A DNA stretch of 64,000 bases from Mobilibacterium timonense. GTDB taxonomy: Bacteria; Bacillota; Clostridia; Peptostreptococcales; Anaerovoracaceae. The notes below the pieces were generated by a model. It was not told where the DNA came from, searched no databases, and saw nothing but the letters and a program-made list of their open reading frames with translations. The translations under genes and the position numbers were made by a program. The stretch spans positions 76,178 through 140,177 of the forward strand of contig NZ_FUHN01000007.1 in the NCBI RefSeq assembly GCF_900155555.1, read 5' to 3'. Positions 3,722-62,010 of this stretch are shown piece after piece (the stretch's first letter is position 1; each line of letters opens with the position of its first letter).

Positions 3722-4212
3722 TATTCCATGTCCTTTCTGATGCTGTTGAGGAGACCTCCGCAGTCGATTATGTGCTTTATCGAATCGGGGAAGGCTGCAG
3801 CCTGCCAGGTCTTTCCCTGAGTTATGTCGCGGATGATCCCATGCGAAAGGTCGATCTCCACCTGGTCTCCGTCCTCTATCTCGCGGCTCGCCTCAGGGCA
3901 TTCGAGGATCGGAAGTCCTATGTTGATGGAGTTCCTGTAAAAGATCCTGGCGAAGGTCTCTGCTATCACGCAGCTCACTCCCCGGCCTTTTATGGCGATA
4001 GGAGCGTGTTCTCGCGAGGAGCCACAGCCGAAGTTCTCCCCGGCAACTATGATGTCTCCCGTGTTTATTTTTTCCTTGAACTCCGGATCGTAGTCCTGCA
4101 TCAGGTGAGAGGCAAGCTCGTCCGGATCCTGGGTGTTCAGGTATCTGGCGGCTATGATCAGATCTGTGTCGATGTTGTTGCCTACCTTGTGAACCTTTCC
4201 TTTTACGTCCAT
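3721..4212 (-). CDS. leuD: 3-isopropylmalate dehydratase, small subunit
   Basis: The swivelling subunit of isopropylmalate isomerase, which pairs with LeuC to convert 2-isopropylmalate to 3-isopropylmalate. At 163 residues it is the short, archaeal/clostridial-type LeuD (enterobacterial ones are about 200). The family motif [14 protein letters not shown] and the C-terminal DGDQVEIDL are present. A GGGAGG ribosome site precedes the ATG. The gene starts 12 bases after leuC and overlaps leuB by one base. Confidence 0.96.
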
Positions 4213-4224
4213 TCTCTGCCTCCC

Positions 4225-5502
4225 TTAATCATCTGCCCCGTCCGTCACAGAGTACGGAGAGGCGATCTTTCCTGCAATTGCCGATGCTGCTGCGGTCTCC
4301 GGGCTGGCCAGATAGACCTCAGACTCCACGTGGCCCATGCGGCCCACGAAGTTCCTGTTTGTGGTGGAGACACATCTCTCTCCGGCTGCCAGGATACCCA
4401 TGTGCCCGCCGAGGCATGGTCCGCAGGTAGGAGGGGAGATGATGCACCCGGATTCGATGAAGTCCTCCAGGTATCCACGGCGCATGCTCTCCAGGTAGAT
4501 CGCCTGGGTGGCCGGCATTATTATGGCCCGGACACCAGGAGCGACGTGGTGTCCCTTCATGATGGCGTGTGCCTTCTCCATGTCGGAGATCCTTCCGTTG
4601 GTGCAGGAGCCGATGACCACCTGGTCGATAGGGATGTCAGGGATGTCATCGAAGGTCCTGGTATTAGAAGGAAGGTGAGGGAAGGACACAGTAGGCTGGA
4701 TCTCTCCCAGGTCTATGTCATAGACCGCATCGTATTCCGCATCTTCGTCCGCCTCGTATATCTTGAAGGCCCTGTCGACGCGGCCCTTCTCGTAGTCCAG
4801 AGTCACCTGATCCACAGGGAAGATGCCGTTCTTGGCACCTGCCTCGATGGCCATGTTGCATACGGTGAGCCTGTCGTCGATCGTGAGGCTGGCCACTCCC
4901 GGGCCGGCGAACTCCATGGACTTGTACAGGGCACCGTCTACTCCGATCATGCCGATGATGTGGAGGATGAGATCCTTTCCGCTGACGTGCTCTCTGAATG
5001 ATCCCGTGAGGTTGAACTTAAGAGCCGAAGGGACCTTGAACCAGGCCTTTCCGGTCACCATTGCCGCGGTCACGTCGGTCGATCCTACGCCCGTGGAAAA
5101 AGCGCCCAACGCCCCGTAGGTACACGTGTGGGAATCGGCGCCGATGATCGCCTCGCCGGGAGCAACGATGCCCTTTTCCGGGAGAAGAGCGTGCTCTATC
5201 CCCACGGCTCCCACGTCGTAGTAGTTGTCTATGTCGAACCTCCTTGCGAAGGTGCGGCACTTCTGACATTGCTCAGCGCTCTTTATGTCCTTGTTAGGAG
5301 TGAAGTGGTCCATCACCAGGGAGATCCTGGACTTGTCGAATACAGAATCGAATCCGGCTTTGTCGAACTCCTTTATGGATACGGGGCCGGTGATGTCGTT
5401 GGCCAGCACCATGTCCAGATCGGCGCTCAGGAGCTCCCCGGCCTTCACCTCTGGAAGGCCGGCATGAGCTGCAAGTATCTTCTGGGTCATCGTCATTCCC
5501 AT
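4225..5502 (-). CDS. leuC: 3-isopropylmalate dehydratase, large subunit
   Basis: The 425-residue catalytic subunit of isopropylmalate isomerase, an aconitase-fold enzyme holding a [4Fe-4S] cluster. Visible marks are [25 protein letters not shown] and [11 protein letters not shown], which supply the three cluster cysteines. The size fits the shorter class that pairs with a short LeuD. The ATG at 5502 has an AGGAGG site nine bases upstream; two further Met codons follow within five residues, so a slightly later start is possible. It lies 48 bases downstream of leuA. Confidence 0.96.
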
Positions 5503-5550
5503 GGGGAAAATCCTCCTTTATAACATGTTTTCCGATATGTGCTGAAGTCG

Positions 5551-7248
5551 CTACATGAACTTGATCTTCTTGTTCATCCTGTTGATGGCGCTCACCAGGG
5601 CGTTTACGGAAGCCAGGATGATATCGGCCTGCGTGCCTACGCCCCAGTACTTGTTGCCGTCAGGGCCCTGGATGCACACATACGCAGCTGCCTTGGAGTT
5701 GGAATCGGCGCTGATGGCGTTCTCCTGGTACGTCACGAAGTCGTACTTGAACTTGTAGTCCGTGTCGTTCAGGGCGTTTCTCACCGCGTCCAGACGGCCG
5801 TTTCCTTCTCCCGTCAGATTATATACTTTGTCGTGGATGACCACTCTCATCTTCACGCTGTAAACGTTTTCTTCCTTAGTAGAGGAGAAGTGGCTGAACA
5901 CCGCGTCGGTGATGTCCATCGGGTAAAAGTCGTTGATGTACTCCTTCTCGAATGCATCGTAGACCTCCTGAGGTGACAGCTCCTCGTGGCTCTTGTCGGA
6001 GATGTCCTTGATCATGTATCCGAGCTCGGCTCTCATGTCCTTAGGGATCAGGAAGCCGTAGTTCTGCTCCAGGACGTAGGCGACGCCTCCCTTTCCGGAC
6101 TGGCTGTTGATCCTGATGACGTCTCCGTCATACTTCCTTCCCACGTCGTGCGGATCGATAGGAAGGTAAGGGCAGGTCCACCTGTATTCGCCCTTTTCCT
6201 CTCTGTATTTCATGCCCTTGGCGATGGCGTCCTGGTGCGACCCGGAAAAGGCGGCGAAGACGAGTTCGCCTGAGTACGGCTGGCGAGGGCCTACGGTCAT
6301 GCGGGTGAACTTTTCGTACGCCTCGACGATCGAGCTCATATCCGAGAAGTCCAGCTCAGGGTCCACGCCGTGGGTGAACATGTTCATCGCTATAGTCACG
6401 ATGTCCGCATTTCCTGTTCTCTCACCGTTTCCGAAGAGAGTTCCCTCGATCCTGTCGGCTCCTGCCAGCATTCCAAGCTCTGCGTCGGCCACGCCGGTCC
6501 CCCTGTCGTTGTGAGGGTGCAGTGAGATGAGCACGCTGTCCCTCTTGTGGAGAGCTCTGTCCATGTACTCCACCTGATTTGCGAAGATGTGAGGAAGGGA
6601 CATCTCGACAGTGGCAGGGAGGTTGATGATGCACGGGTGATCCGGGGTAGGATCCCAGATGTCTATTACGGCGTTGCAGACCTCGGCCGCGTACTCCGGC
6701 TCCGTTCCCGTGAAGCTCTCAGGAGAGTACTCGAAGGTGAAGTCGGTCTCAGGATACTTTTCCTTATATTCGTTCATGAGAAGTGCACCGTCTATGGCGA
6801 TCTGCTTGATCTCGTCCTTAGACTTCCTGAAAACCTGCTCTCTCTGAGCCTTGGATGTGGAGTTGTACAGGTGGACGATGGCCTTCTTTGCGCCTTTGAG
6901 TGCTGCAAAAGTCTTATCTATTATATGCTTCCTGGACTGGGTGAGCACCTGTACTCTCACGTCGTCAGGGATCAGATCCTGTTCGATAAGGGTGCGGAGA
7001 AATTCGAACTCCGTTTCGGATGCAGCCGGGAAGCCCACCTCGATGTCCTTGAATCCTATATCCACCAGAACCTTGAAGAAGTTCAGCTTTTCCTCAAGAG
7101 ACATAGGCACCACCAGAGCCTGGTTGCCGTCCCGCAGATCCACGCTGCACCACAGAGGAGCTTTTTCAATATGATCCTTGTGCACCCACTTGTACTCGTT
7201 GACTGGCGGGTTGAAATATCCTGGGCTGTACTTTTTGTAGTTTTCCAT
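5551..7248 (-). CDS. leuA: 2-isopropylmalate synthase (long LeuA2-type)
   Basis: Condenses acetyl-CoA with 2-oxoisovalerate in the committed step of leucine synthesis. The catalytic DRE-TIM barrel is at the N-terminus (WCSVDLRDGNQA; metal-site HPHNDRGTG near residue 245). The C-terminal part (about 430-565) is the regulatory LeuA dimer domain that gives leucine feedback. At 565 residues, with the start KKYSPGYFNPP, it belongs to the LeuA2 group found in yeast, actinobacteria and many clostridia. The 2-oxoisovalerate substrate comes from the divergent ilv operon. The gene is first in the leu operon, behind a T-box leader. Confidence 0.96.
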   Translation of the reverse strand: MENYKKYSPGYFNPPVNEYKWVHKDHIEKAPLWCSVDLRDGNQALVVPMSLEEKLNFFKVLVDIGFKDIEVGFPAASETEFEFLRTLIEQDLIPDDVRVQVLTQSRKHIIDKTFAALKGAKKAIVHLYNSTSKAQREQVFRKSKDEIKQIAIDGALLMNEYKEKYPETDFTFEYSPESFTGTEPEYAAEVCNAVIDIWDPTPDHPCIINLPATVEMSLPHIFANQVEYMDRALHKRDSVLISLHPHNDRGTGVADAELGMLAGADRIEGTLFGNGERTGNADIVTIAMNMFTHGVDPELDFSDMSSIVEAYEKFTRMTVGPRQPYSGELVFAAFSGSHQDAIAKGMKYREEKGEYRWTCPYLPIDPHDVGRKYDGDVIRINSQSGKGGVAYVLEQNYGFLIPKDMRAELGYMIKDISDKSHEELSPQEVYDAFEKEYINDFYPMDITDAVFSHFSSTKEENVYSVKMRVVIHDKVYNLTGEGNGRLDAVRNALNDTDYKFKYDFVTYQENAISADSNSKAAAYVCIQGPDGNKYWGVGTQADIILASVNALVSAINRMNKKIKFM

Positions 7249-53510: not shown

Positions 53511-53860
53511 CTAGCGGGTAAACCAGACGATCGCGTGCAGTATGCATGAGGAAAGTCCGGGCTCCACAGGGCGAGGATGCCAGATAACGTCTGGCGTAGG
53601 TAACTATAGGGAAAGTGCAACAGAAACATTCCGCCGAAACGGGTAATGCCGTGGTAAGGTTGAAATGGTGAGGTAAGAGCTCACCGGCGCAATGGAGACA
53701 TTGCGGCCGTGTAAACCCCATCCGGAGCAAGACTAAGACAGGGTTTGTAGTGCAGTGGCCCGCTGCCCCCGAGAGGTAAGTCGCTGGAGGCTGTCAGCAA
53801 TGGCAGTCGTAGATGGATGATCGTTTAATACAGAACCCGGCTTACGGTTTGCCCGTTATC
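53511..53860 (+). ncRNA. rnpB: RNase P RNA (A-type)
   Basis: The catalytic RNA that cleaves 5' leaders from tRNA precursors. The universally conserved GAGGAAAGTCCGGGCTCC block begins near 53550, and its partner ACAGAACCCGGCTTAC lies near the 3' end. The terminal helix P1 is visible: CGGGTAAACC (53515-53524) pairs with GGTTTGCCCG (53846-53855). The length of about 345 bases and the layout are A-type, as in Clostridia, not the B-type of Bacilli. The exact 5' and 3' ends are estimated. Confidence 0.97.
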
Positions 53861-59185: not shown

Positions 59186-59214
59186 GTTGAAATCCTCGTG
59201 GAATGAAACTATAA
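59186..59214 (+). promoter_or_regulatory. Promoter of the 6S-like RNA
   Basis: TTGAAA at 59186-59191 and TATAAT at 59209-59214 with an ideal 17-base spacer predict transcription from about 59220, with no open frame downstream. Confidence 0.75.
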
Positions 59215-59219
59215 TGAAT

Positions 59220-59410
59220 CAAGGGGTTTCCTGGGGTATGCGTTGGAGGCTTTTAATTGAACCTACACTTCTTCATCGGGATTCTTAGGACTGACTGCCA
59301 ATGACCTGCCGCCTGCGAGCGGACTTCAGCGGCTGAGGAGAGAAGTACCCACCCTTATCTATTGATAGGGCGTCAATTAATACTCTGACGGTACTTTGGG
59401 GCCAACATAA
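59220..59410 (+). ncRNA. Structured non-coding RNA, probably 6S RNA
   Basis: About 190 bases lie between a strong promoter and a strong terminator without a coding frame. The two halves fold on each other as one long rod: GTTGGAG with CTCTGAC, TTAATTGA with TCAATTAA, ACTTCTT with GAGAAGT, CTTAG with CTGAG, and a small CCGC/GCGG hairpin in the middle. A single broken rod of this length with an open centre is the shape of 6S RNA, which binds RNA polymerase holding the housekeeping sigma factor. I identify it by shape and size only; it could be another small RNA. Confidence 0.5.
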
Positions 59411-59415
59411 AAATC

Positions 59416-59450
59416 AGCGCTTTTCGGTTTATCCGAAGGGCGCTTTTTTT
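59416..59450 (+). terminator. Terminator of the 6S-like RNA
   Basis: A 12-base-pair stem (AGCGCTTTTCGG with CCGAAGGGCGCT, with G-U pairs) around a 5-base loop, ending in a run of seven Ts. Confidence 0.9.
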
Positions 59451-59566
59451 CGTGTATCGATATCATGTCCCGAATTTGTCTCATATGGATTTCTATAATG
59501 TGATCAGAAACTAAGAAATGAAATGTGAGATGCGGTCCGATCGCCGCAGGTGTGAAGGAGACCAGT

Positions 59567-60118
59567 ATGGAAAAACAGAAAACATCAGTTGGTGAAAGCA
59601 TTACGGAATGCGATGTTATCTGCGGGCCGTCATGCGGAATTGGGAGCAGGGTCGCATATGGTGTTTACGGCGTGAGGGACAGAAAAGCCGGGCGCATACG
59701 CATCCCTCAGGAATACAACGGGCATTTAGTAATAAACATCCGACCTGGAGCGTTCAGGAGCAACAACAGGTTAAAGGAGGTGATCCTGAACAAATACATC
59801 AGCGAGATCCCGGAGGATTGCTTCGCGGGATGCACTCACCTGGAGAGGGTCATCATTCCCAGAAAGCTCTATAGTATAGAGGATGGGGCCTTCAGGGGAT
59901 GCATATCTCTTAAAGAGATATATTTTGGCGGCACATACGACGAATGGAAGGCGATAAAGATAAAGGAGTTCATCCGCTGCGTGGAGACCAGCGGCAGATG
60001 CCAGCCTGGCAGACCGGTGGAGGATGTCACGAAGGACGTGCTGATACCAGTCACGGGCAACGAGGCCTTGAGGAGGGCGACGATATACTTCAGGTACAGC
60101 ATGGAACAGCAGGAATAA
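59567..60118 (+). CDS. Small leucine-rich-repeat (BspA-type) protein
   Basis: A 183-residue protein with two to three LRR_5-type repeats around residues 50-115, e.g. GAFRSNNRLKEVILNKYI, CFAGCTHLERVIIP and GAFRGCISLKEIYFGG. BspA repeats usually occur on secreted proteins, but no signal peptide or anchor is visible here, so it should be cytoplasmic. The start is ATG 59567 with AAGGAG before it; the frame is open from a GTG at 59525. It is first in a cluster with an unknown protein and an FtsH-like protease, and could present substrates to the latter (inference). A TATAAT at 59494-59499 may be its -10. Confidence 0.75.
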   Translation: MEKQKTSVGESITECDVICGPSCGIGSRVAYGVYGVRDRKAGRIRIPQEYNGHLVINIRPGAFRSNNRLKEVILNKYISEIPEDCFAGCTHLERVIIPRKLYSIEDGAFRGCISLKEIYFGGTYDEWKAIKIKEFIRCVETSGRCQPGRPVEDVTKDVLIPVTGNEALRRATIYFRYSMEQQE

Positions 60119-60171
60119 TTGAAATAACTGAAATACCTGAATTACAGGTGATGAGTAAACCAGGTGAAAGG

Positions 60172-60621
60172 ATGAATGACATGGATATAAGCGGAGCATT
60201 GGAGCTGCTCAGGAGAGATGTGAAAGACGTGAACTCCGACATTCACGAATTCGTGATGGACGGAACGAACATGAGTGAAGAGGAATTCTTGTCGACAATG
60301 GAAAAGAACATCGAATGGGCGTCGAGGGTCCGGCTGAACGAGTGCGACGGCGAACTGTACGCCGCATATACTTTCGTGGATGGCCGCCAGGTGTATTTCA
60401 AGTTTATGGCCTGCGATGATGAGATGGAGGATGCACTGGGGAATTTTACTATCTTCCTGGACCTTTACAGAGGGGGCATCTCGCTCTCTGACCTCGGTGC
60501 CGCCGTTCTGGCGGACAGAGCACTGCCTTTTTACTACCTGGAGTTCGGCGTCTTTTCAAAAGAACTCTCGGAGGAACCGTCGGTCAGGAAGTGGGGCGGG
60601 TTCAGCGTCTCGAGAGATTGA
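60172..60621 (+). CDS. Acidic protein of unknown function, between LRR and protease genes
   Basis: A 149-residue acidic protein without recognised motifs. The N-terminal half is helical (ALELLRRDVKDVNSDIHEFV). The second half has alternating strand-like segments (GELYAAYTFVDGRQVYFKF). No signal peptide or membrane segment is seen. Several Met codons are possible starts (60151, 60172 and 60181). I chose 60172 because GGTGAAAGG directly precedes it. It lies 53 bases after the LRR gene and 57 before the protease gene, in one apparent operon. Confidence 0.6.
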   Translation: MNDMDISGALELLRRDVKDVNSDIHEFVMDGTNMSEEEFLSTMEKNIEWASRVRLNECDGELYAAYTFVDGRQVYFKFMACDDEMEDALGNFTIFLDLYRGGISLSDLGAAVLADRALPFYYLEFGVFSKELSEEPSVRKWGGFSVSRD

Positions 60622-60678
60622 TGAGTACGGGCGCAGAGCGACAGAACTGATAATGAGATCTATAGAGAGGAGAGCCAG

Positions 60679-61953
60679 ATGAGTGCATTTGACAAGGTGA
60701 TAGGTTACGAGCCCATCAAAGAAGAACTTATACAGATATGCGACATGATACATAACAGGGAGGCATACGAGAGGCTGGGCGCAAGAATGCCTCAGGGTAT
60801 CCTTCTCCACGGGGCACCGGGCGTAGGAAAAACACTGATGGCAAGATGCTTTGTGGAGGAGGCGGGACTTACTAGCTTCGTGATACGCCGTGACAAAGGG
60901 AGCGACGACTTTATTAAACATATTGTGGAGACCTTTGAGGAGGCCGGAAAAAACCAGCCGTGTATCGTGTTCCTGGACGATATGGACAAGTTTGCAAACG
61001 AGGACAGGACACACCAGGATGCAGAGGAATATGTCGCCGTCCAGGCATGTATAGACGGGGCCAGAGATTCCGGGGTCACGGTCATCGCCACGGCGAACGA
61101 CATCGACAAGCTGCCGGGTTCCCTGATACGCACAGGAAGGTTCGACAGGAGAATAATGGTCCATCGCCCCGCAGAGGACGAGGCTGAGGCCATAATCAGT
61201 CACTACCTGTCTGATAAACCGGTGGACAGTTCAGTGAACATGGAGGATCTTACAAAAATGATCAGATACAGGTCGTGTGCGGAACTTGAGACGATCCTGA
61301 ACGAGGCGGCCATCAGCGCAGCTTCGGCGAGAAAGGAACTGATAGAAATGGATGATTTTCTCAAGGCGGTACTCAGGCTGCAGTACGGGACCACCGAGAC
61401 GGTCAGAGACAGGTCAGAAGAAAAGATGAGAAAAGTGGCTCTTCACGAGGCCGGACACCTTGTGGCGGCAGAGGTGCTCTACAAGGGGAGCATCGGGCTC
61501 GCTTCGATAAGACCAGTCGGATATGGAGACGGCTGCGGGTTCGTTAACAGGTGCAGCGTCATATACAGGAGACCGCACATGGTCATGGTGTATCTGGCAG
61601 GAAAAGCCGCGGTGGAGATGTACTACTCCGAGGCCGTGGCCAGCGGCTGTGGCGAGGACCTTTCAAATGCCGCAGAAGTCATTGAGGAGGGTATCATTGA
61701 AAGCGGTACTCTGGGGCTCCATATGATATCGAGTGGCAGAAGCTCGAGTATGCCCGATGGATACAGGGCTCAAATCAGGGCGGGGGTCGCATCTGAGATG
61801 GAAAGACTGATGCTCCAGACGAGGGAGCTCCTGCTGAACAACAGGAAATTCCTGGAAAAGGCGGCAGAGCAGCTGCTAAAAAAAGAGACGCTCCTCTACT
61901 CTGAGATAAGGGCGATAAGAGAGAGCTGTGTCACCGGGGACGTTTCTCACTGA
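60679..61953 (+). CDS. Soluble FtsH-like AAA/M41 metalloprotease
   Basis: A 424-residue protein with both halves of FtsH: an AAA ATPase (about 5-235) and an M41 peptidase (about 245-420). Walker A is GAPGVGKT (45-52). Walker B reads IVFLDD (96-101), with Asp in place of the usual second-position Glu. The arginine-finger region is RTGRFDRR. The zinc motif HEAGH is at 256-260, with the likely third ligand Asp327 in GCGEDLSNA. FtsH is normally about 600-650 residues with two N-terminal membrane segments; here these are absent, so it should be cytosolic. AGAGAGGAG precedes the ATG. Confidence 0.88.
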   Translation: MSAFDKVIGYEPIKEELIQICDMIHNREAYERLGARMPQGILLHGAPGVGKTLMARCFVEEAGLTSFVIRRDKGSDDFIKHIVETFEEAGKNQPCIVFLDDMDKFANEDRTHQDAEEYVAVQACIDGARDSGVTVIATANDIDKLPGSLIRTGRFDRRIMVHRPAEDEAEAIISHYLSDKPVDSSVNMEDLTKMIRYRSCAELETILNEAAISAASARKELIEMDDFLKAVLRLQYGTTETVRDRSEEKMRKVALHEAGHLVAAEVLYKGSIGLASIRPVGYGDGCGFVNRCSVIYRRPHMVMVYLAGKAAVEMYYSEAVASGCGEDLSNAAEVIEEGIIESGTLGLHMISSGRSSSMPDGYRAQIRAGVASEMERLMLQTRELLLNNRKFLEKAAEQLLKKETLLYSEIRAIRESCVTGDVSH

Positions 61954-61976: not shown

Positions 61977-62010
61977 AAAAAGCCGGGGGAACAACATCCT
62001 CCGGCTTTTT
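61977..62010. terminator. Terminator between the protease and OPT genes
   Basis: AAAAGCCGGGGGA pairs with TCCTCCGGCTTTT (one G-U) around a 6-base loop, ending in five Ts on the plus strand and an A/T-rich end on the minus strand. It can serve both convergent genes. Confidence 0.9.

Follow-up and report, generated by a model that had tools for sequence, protein, structure and literature searches.

FtsH is known from the literature as a membrane-anchored AAA+ protease (PMC8943139, PMC9020784). Together with the i-AAA and m-AAA proteases (MEROPS M41; TIGR01241; 3kds, 2ce7), it provides the comparison for ORF3, the last of three genes forming a cassette in a window of 64,000 nucleotides from Mobilibacterium timonense (the whole stretch of DNA that was analyzed). 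ORF3 shares with these enzymes an AAA domain followed by an M41 domain in one chain, the HExxH...D zinc site, the sensor and arginine-finger region, and the predicted fold. It differs from FtsH in having no N-terminal membrane part, in a Walker B motif that ends in DD rather than DE, and in the loss of the F-V-G pore motif. The FtsH of jumbo phage (Callisto) was considered as a soluble precedent, but its coding sequence of 1731 bp (about 576 aa) includes an N-terminal part, and it is a different thing.

Another described relative is IetA, which in the IetAS anti-phage system pairs with the subtilase-like IetS. IetA models match ORF3 (PADLOC, 9.7e-23; NCBIfam IteA, 66.5 bits against a cut-off of 510), but only over its AAA part, and its neighbors are an LRR_5 protein and an orphan rather than an adjoining IetS. 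On the side of genomic context, conflict neighborhoods with WYL, ARG, phosphatase, and vWA genes have been proposed (PMC9503650), with examples reported among actinobacteria, planctomycetes, proteobacteria, and other lineages; the main text of that paper names no FtsH, AAA, LRR, or protease component in them. Similarly, loci of the protease family described below carry genes for WYL, ADP-ribosylglycohydrolase, calcineurin-like phosphatase, HD, macro, and vWA proteins. Finally, the product of the first gene, ORF1, resembles the BspA-type LRR_5 proteins of gut Clostridia in its LRR_5 repeats and its 'GGT.DEW' and 'GNEAL..A' ending, whereas its own subfamily is short (about 180-240 aa), has a conserved 'PG.PV' insertion, is rare, and often lies beside M41 genes. 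Unlike BspA-like surface LRR proteins, ORF1 has neither a signal nor an anchor.

Our proposal, at roughly even confidence, is that ORF3 works in solution as an AAA+/M41 protease that forms rings and is a horizontally spread module of a WYL-regulated stress/conflict network, with the LRR protein as its probable targeting partner.

An FtsH-like protease without a membrane segment

The AAA domain of ORF3 (Pfam, 2.1e-23) is followed by Peptidase_M41 (2.4e-11, 44.3 bits; cut-off 29.9), both exceeding the Pfam cut-offs. A PDB profile match to FtsH covers the full length (2dhr, 3-413), an AlphaFold2 model (pLDDT 88.9) has FtsH as its best PDB matches (3kds, E 4e-27), and the NCBIfam equivalog TIGR01241 gives 208.7 bits, under its cut-off of 600. 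The original prediction had placed an LRR protein and an acidic protein upstream, on the same strand, of an AAA protein with an intact M41 zinc site and a DD Walker B, and all of these reading frames and motifs are present (Table 1). It had also claimed that FtsH's N-terminal membrane segments are missing. No such transmembrane segment was found in a hydropathy scan of ORF3 or in the in-frame upstream sequence as far as the stops: the peak 19-residue hydropathy is 1.05, compared with about 1.9-2.95 in most of the canonical FtsHs compared, and two in-frame stops lie 18 codons 5' of M1 (VRAQSDRTDNEIYREESQ). A hidden in-frame FtsH N-terminus is therefore excluded. Because full-length relatives with 40-60% identity occur in dozens of genomes, ORF3 is not a chance reading frame; nor is it a truncated housekeeping FtsH, since the same genome has two other M41 genes, with frames of 713 and 614 codons, that are its ordinary FtsHs. 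The idea of a cytosolic protease distinct from the membrane FtsHs was thus borne out. Judged by homology, ORF3 is an M41 AAA+ protease but not a canonical FtsH, from which its anchor, Walker B, and pore set it apart.

Table 1. Features of the cassette and of its surroundings, in window coordinates.
Feature	Position	Strand	Remarks
RNase P RNA, class A	53515-53859	+	275.5 bits
Promoter-like TTGAAA-17-TATAAT of 6S candidate	59187-59215
6S RNA candidate	59225-59406	+	between yebC and cassette
Terminator-like hairpin of 6S candidate	59416-59444
Leader/promoter region of cassette	59456..59566	+	in sister species G001, conserved together with ORF1 but at another locus
ORF1, cytosolic LRR_5 (BspA-type), 183 aa	59567..60118	+	LRR_5 1.7e-13; 'PG.PV...GNEAL..A' C-terminal cap
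ORF2, acidic orphan, 146 aa from ATG 60181	60181..60621	+	no significant family hit; homologue in G001 only
ORF3, soluble AAA+/M41 metalloprotease, 424 aa	60679..61953	+	Pfam, alignment, AF2 model
Walker A GAPGVGKT, residues 45-52	60811..60834	+	G45, P47, G48, G50, K51 invariant in alignment
Pore-loop-1 region, rebuilt, IRRDKGSDDFIKHIV, residues 68-82	60880..60924	+	FtsH F-V-G-V-G-A-S-R absent, Phe78 retained
Walker B FLDDMDKF, Asp-Asp replacing Asp-Glu	60970..60993	+	DD in 83/83 aligned family members
Zinc site HEAGH, residues 256-260	61444..61458	+	H256, E257, H260 invariant in 42 members
Third zinc ligand Asp327	61657..61659	+	invariant in 42 members; aligned with canonical FtsH zinc-ligand Asp
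Terminator-like hairpin 3' of ORF3	61985..62001	+	~30 bp past M41 stop, ahead of convergent OPT transporter gene

A family of short M41 proteins scattered across Clostridia

A search of 61 whole genomes gave one real orthologue of ORF3 (42%, genome G004), everything else being ordinary FtsH at ~30%, while a two-sequence alignment run against 84,980 species brought out 188 relatives, 80 of which were fetched. The family proteins are ~420 aa long and have stops near their starts (in-frame residues before M1: median 16, maximum 96). A clearly hydrophobic stretch near the start of the frame was seen in 1 of 82 members (L095), possibly as part of a non-coding upstream frame. In a phylogenetic tree, a long branch of 1.5 substitutions per site parts them from canonical FtsH, with modest support for the split (0.60). 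They form a coherent, apparently undescribed family of soluble M41 proteins: no description of such ~420-aa proteins was found in the literature on FtsH, M41, WYL, RtcB, or defense, and we could not find one of the family's genomic context in the papers and libraries searched. Within the bacterial family of the window genome, it is present in 13 of 350 genomes, a sporadic distribution that fits horizontal transfer. The viral scan returned a single related contig (L129), so that in the collection searched the short M41 proteins do not belong to phages as a family.

Conserved residues distinguish the family further. Walker B takes the form [hydrophobic]DD[ML]DK[FY], where the canonical FtsHs shown have DE. 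Bias toward the DD motif was built into the scan patterns, but the 11 members inspected from the whole-protein search all carried DD too. The pore motif F/Y/W-V-G is found in 2 of 83 members versus 26 of 30 canonical FtsHs; a shorter stretch, in which basic R-[RK]-x-K precedes D-F-[VI], takes its place, and Phe78 is conserved in more than 90% of the aligned members. The arginine-finger region is conserved in the alignment, as are all the zinc ligands, whose invariance implies selection for catalysis. From these residues we infer that ORF3 is an active protease in which ATP hydrolysis and substrate grip would have been retuned.

Two family members lie in tandem at locus L150 of genome G140 (4197-5510 and 5503-6906). 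The second (467 aa) keeps LMDDMDKF but has no HExxH; the two may thus form a pair of one catalytic and one non-catalytic subunit.

WYL regulators and RNA-repair genes around the short M41 genes

A survey of neighbors had been put forward with the original prediction, and clustering of 870 neighboring proteins from 92 family loci returned WYL regulators as the largest recurrent group. WYL genes occurred at 45 of the 92 M41 loci compared with 2 of 40 random 13-kb regions searched with the same HMMs (Fisher p = 2e-7; 51 versus 3.8 per Mb). Eight genomes belonging to the family and order of the window supplied the control regions, with the caveat that they are not the genomes that carry the M41 loci. 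As a counter-control, ABC transporters were depleted at the M41 loci relative to the controls. Sixteen WYL genes were located directly 3' of M41 on the same strand (82 loci). Cultured carriers with a WYL-linked locus include Schwartzia succinivorans DSM 10502 (L093) and Butyrivibrio sp. VCD2006 (L099). Other recurrent neighbors were AAA_lid_6 ATPases, SLOG (YspA), calcineurin-like phosphatases, cREC, RtcB, vWA/DUF2201, ADP-ribosylglycohydrolase, macro, DUF2779, and helicases; each of these types was found in 0 of 40 controls, with several comparisons reaching only near p = 0.05. PPP phosphatase and HD genes were also present, and the G004 locus has a small DUF6273 protein as a neighbor. Apart from WYL, few known defense proteins were detected beside the M41 genes with PADLOC. 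No WYL, RtcB, or ARG neighbor was found at the window locus, the two WYL genes of that genome being on other contigs, so that the network role proposed for ORF3 is carried over from its relatives. A role of the family in conflict is plausible.

The main alternative, which we regard as possible though somewhat doubtful, is that the protease serves general cytosolic proteostasis, clearing damaged proteins under stress without any part in conflict, and that the WYL and RNA-repair neighbors reflect common stress control. The chaperone-like vWA/DUF2201 proteins, AAA_lid_6 ATPases, RtcB, and phosphatases would suit stress repair, as would the rarity of classical defense genes. However, the patchy presence of the family and its changing neighbors fit an accessory module better than a housekeeping one, and the window genome is already equipped with two canonical FtsHs.

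Two further observations concern these loci. An AAA ATPase with AAA_lid_6 (CbbX/SpoVK-like, 670-690 aa) stands beside the short M41 gene in nine loci, among them L050:1440-3503, L051:3915-5915, L054:3951-5957, L059:5832-7853, and L145:5260-7272, and often immediately upstream, giving two AAA machines per locus. A cREC (cyclic-phosphate processing receiver) gene is near M41 in L055-L058, L059, and L114, in most of them with SLOG as well, pointing to nucleotide-derived signals.

The LRR protein recurs beside the protease, and ORF2 does not

The original prediction described ORF1 as an LRR protein without a secretion signal, in agreement with the absence of a hydrophobic N-terminus from its hydropathy profile (maximum 0.88). 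Its subfamily consists of short LRR_5 proteins that share the conserved C-terminal cap and the 'PG.PV' insertion. Among 394 genomes sampled from the order, two carried this subfamily, the window genome and its sister species (G001), and it was detected in one further genome of the bacterial family (G269). Nevertheless, an ORF1-type LRR gene lies within 6 kb of M41 in 6 of the 80 fetched loci in addition to the window, 5' of M41 in L049, L050, and L059 and 3' in L080, L081, and L120; L049/L050 and L080/L081 are close pairs, so that, the window apart, roughly four of the cases are independent. When 26 M41-bearing genomes, a set that deliberately included known positives, were checked whole, six had the LRR subfamily and in five of these it adjoined M41. 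The M41 protein of the window groups in the tree with L079/L080 (0.90), inside a clade that also holds the LRR-linked L049 and L059. The LRR-M41 link is therefore real but partial, a recurrent pairing beyond chance expectation. The LRR gene has no M41 beside it in G001, G269, and G555; since G001 keeps it with ORF2 but without the protease, and G555 has it away from the fetched M41 locus, the LRR protein can also work alone. The LRR gene beside M41 in L049 (3727-4366) is in two overlapping frames and is intact in the close relative L050, reflecting either recent inactivation or an assembly error.

ORF2 was anticipated to be an acidic protein of no known family. Its pI is 4.3, no significant match was found in Pfam, NCBIfam, PADLOC, or PHROGs, and its start may be any of ATG 60151, 60172, and 60181. 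Of the 350 genomes searched from the bacterial family, just two, both of one genus, contain it, and no homology was seen to a 197-aa protein located between the LRR and M41 genes in L050. In G001, the ORF1-ORF2 pair and the sequence just upstream of it, corresponding to window 59456 to about 60646, are found on another contig, adjoining what looks like tilS. DNA identity over window positions 59456-60106 is 88%, and the G001 ORF2 is shortened N-terminally by a deletion. No relative of the short M41 family was found in the G001 genome, which is 93% complete; a possible degenerate M41 remnant near the pair was not convincing (best tblastn E 0.006, upstream of it). Comparison with G001 gave a dN/dS of 0.125 for ORF1 (dS 0.41) and 0.21 for ORF2 (dS 0.69), ratios by which both genes are under purifying selection. 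As the dS of yebC, the one control gene, is 2.1 and far above these values, a recent exchange of the cassette between lineages is suggested.

The notion of two dedicated small partners found no support in that form, given the narrow distribution of ORF2. A dedicated trio is the weaker part of the original prediction: ORF1 and ORF2 persist in G001 without M41, most family members have other neighbors, chiefly WYL, and the full trio is not adjacent in other genomes, although LRR and M41 are. It is nonetheless unlikely that the cassette consists of three unrelated accessory genes caught between the 6S RNA and OPT, with the LRR protein and ORF2 unconnected to the protease. Such an accident would accommodate the separate ORF1-ORF2 pair of G001, the contiguity there of yebC, a 6S-like RNA, and OPT with no cassette in between, and the intergenic gaps of about 57-62 bp in the window trio, which are not tight. 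On the other hand, it would not be expected to bring so rare an LRR subfamily next to M41, on either side, in six further genomes, or to place the window M41 in a clade with other LRR-linked members.

A possible mechanism

Under the proposal of a soluble, partner-directed protease, a divergent offshoot of FtsH would have lost its membrane anchor to give ORF3, which would assemble in the cytosol into a ring, probably hexameric by homology with FtsH, and cut cytosolic targets picked by partner proteins. The DD motif suggests that its ATP hydrolysis is slow or gated. The LRR protein would most likely act as an adaptor, binding a substrate or damage signal and handing it to the ring, and ORF2 would be a lineage-specific accessory. 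At other loci, the controlling neighbor may be a WYL ligand-sensing regulator or a small protein such as DUF6273. The module would have spread horizontally within a variable WYL-regulated network linked to RNA repair and to ADP-ribose/cyclic-nucleotide chemistry, and would act in stress or conflict.

ImmA/IrrE are repressor-cleaving metalloproteases, and by analogy the main substrate could be the adjoining regulator, WYL in most loci, with LRR or ORF2 taking its place here. The 16 WYL genes directly 3' of M41 would suit such a switch, but we consider it quite unlikely: the window operon is without a regulator, WYL proteins are usually ligand-responsive, and no sequence evidence points to cleavage. 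Very unlikely, finally, is an ATPase or remodeling machine with vestigial proteolysis, which would explain the pore motif lost in 81 of 83 members, the DD in all of them, and the L150 tandem member without HExxH, but not zinc ligands that are invariant in 42 aligned members.

Returning to the partner-directed protease, we tentatively suggest that the short M41 proteins of Clostridia are an undescribed, adaptor-gated soluble M41 class, one that supplies proteolysis to WYL-controlled conflict systems of the RNA-repair/ADP-ribose type and whose recognition partners (LRR, DUF6273, and others) are interchangeable. A widespread anchorless clade with family-wide changes to Walker B and the pore loop, in a genomic context of its own, makes it testable what the anchor and the F-V-G pore loop serve, and likewise whether WYL-regulated stress or phage-conflict systems count AAA+ proteolysis among their arms. 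The pairing with LRR turns the adaptor idea into a concrete hypothesis about just two proteins.

Other elements in the window

The leader of the cassette begins right after the terminator-like hairpin of the 6S RNA candidate, and a class A RNase P RNA lies farther upstream (Table 1). Against the Rfam 6S model, the candidate gave an E value of 0.0013, but its 30.6 bits fall short of the gathering score (46.4); at that cut-off the Rfam model seems not to recognize this lineage. The candidate is strongly conserved and in the same place in G001.
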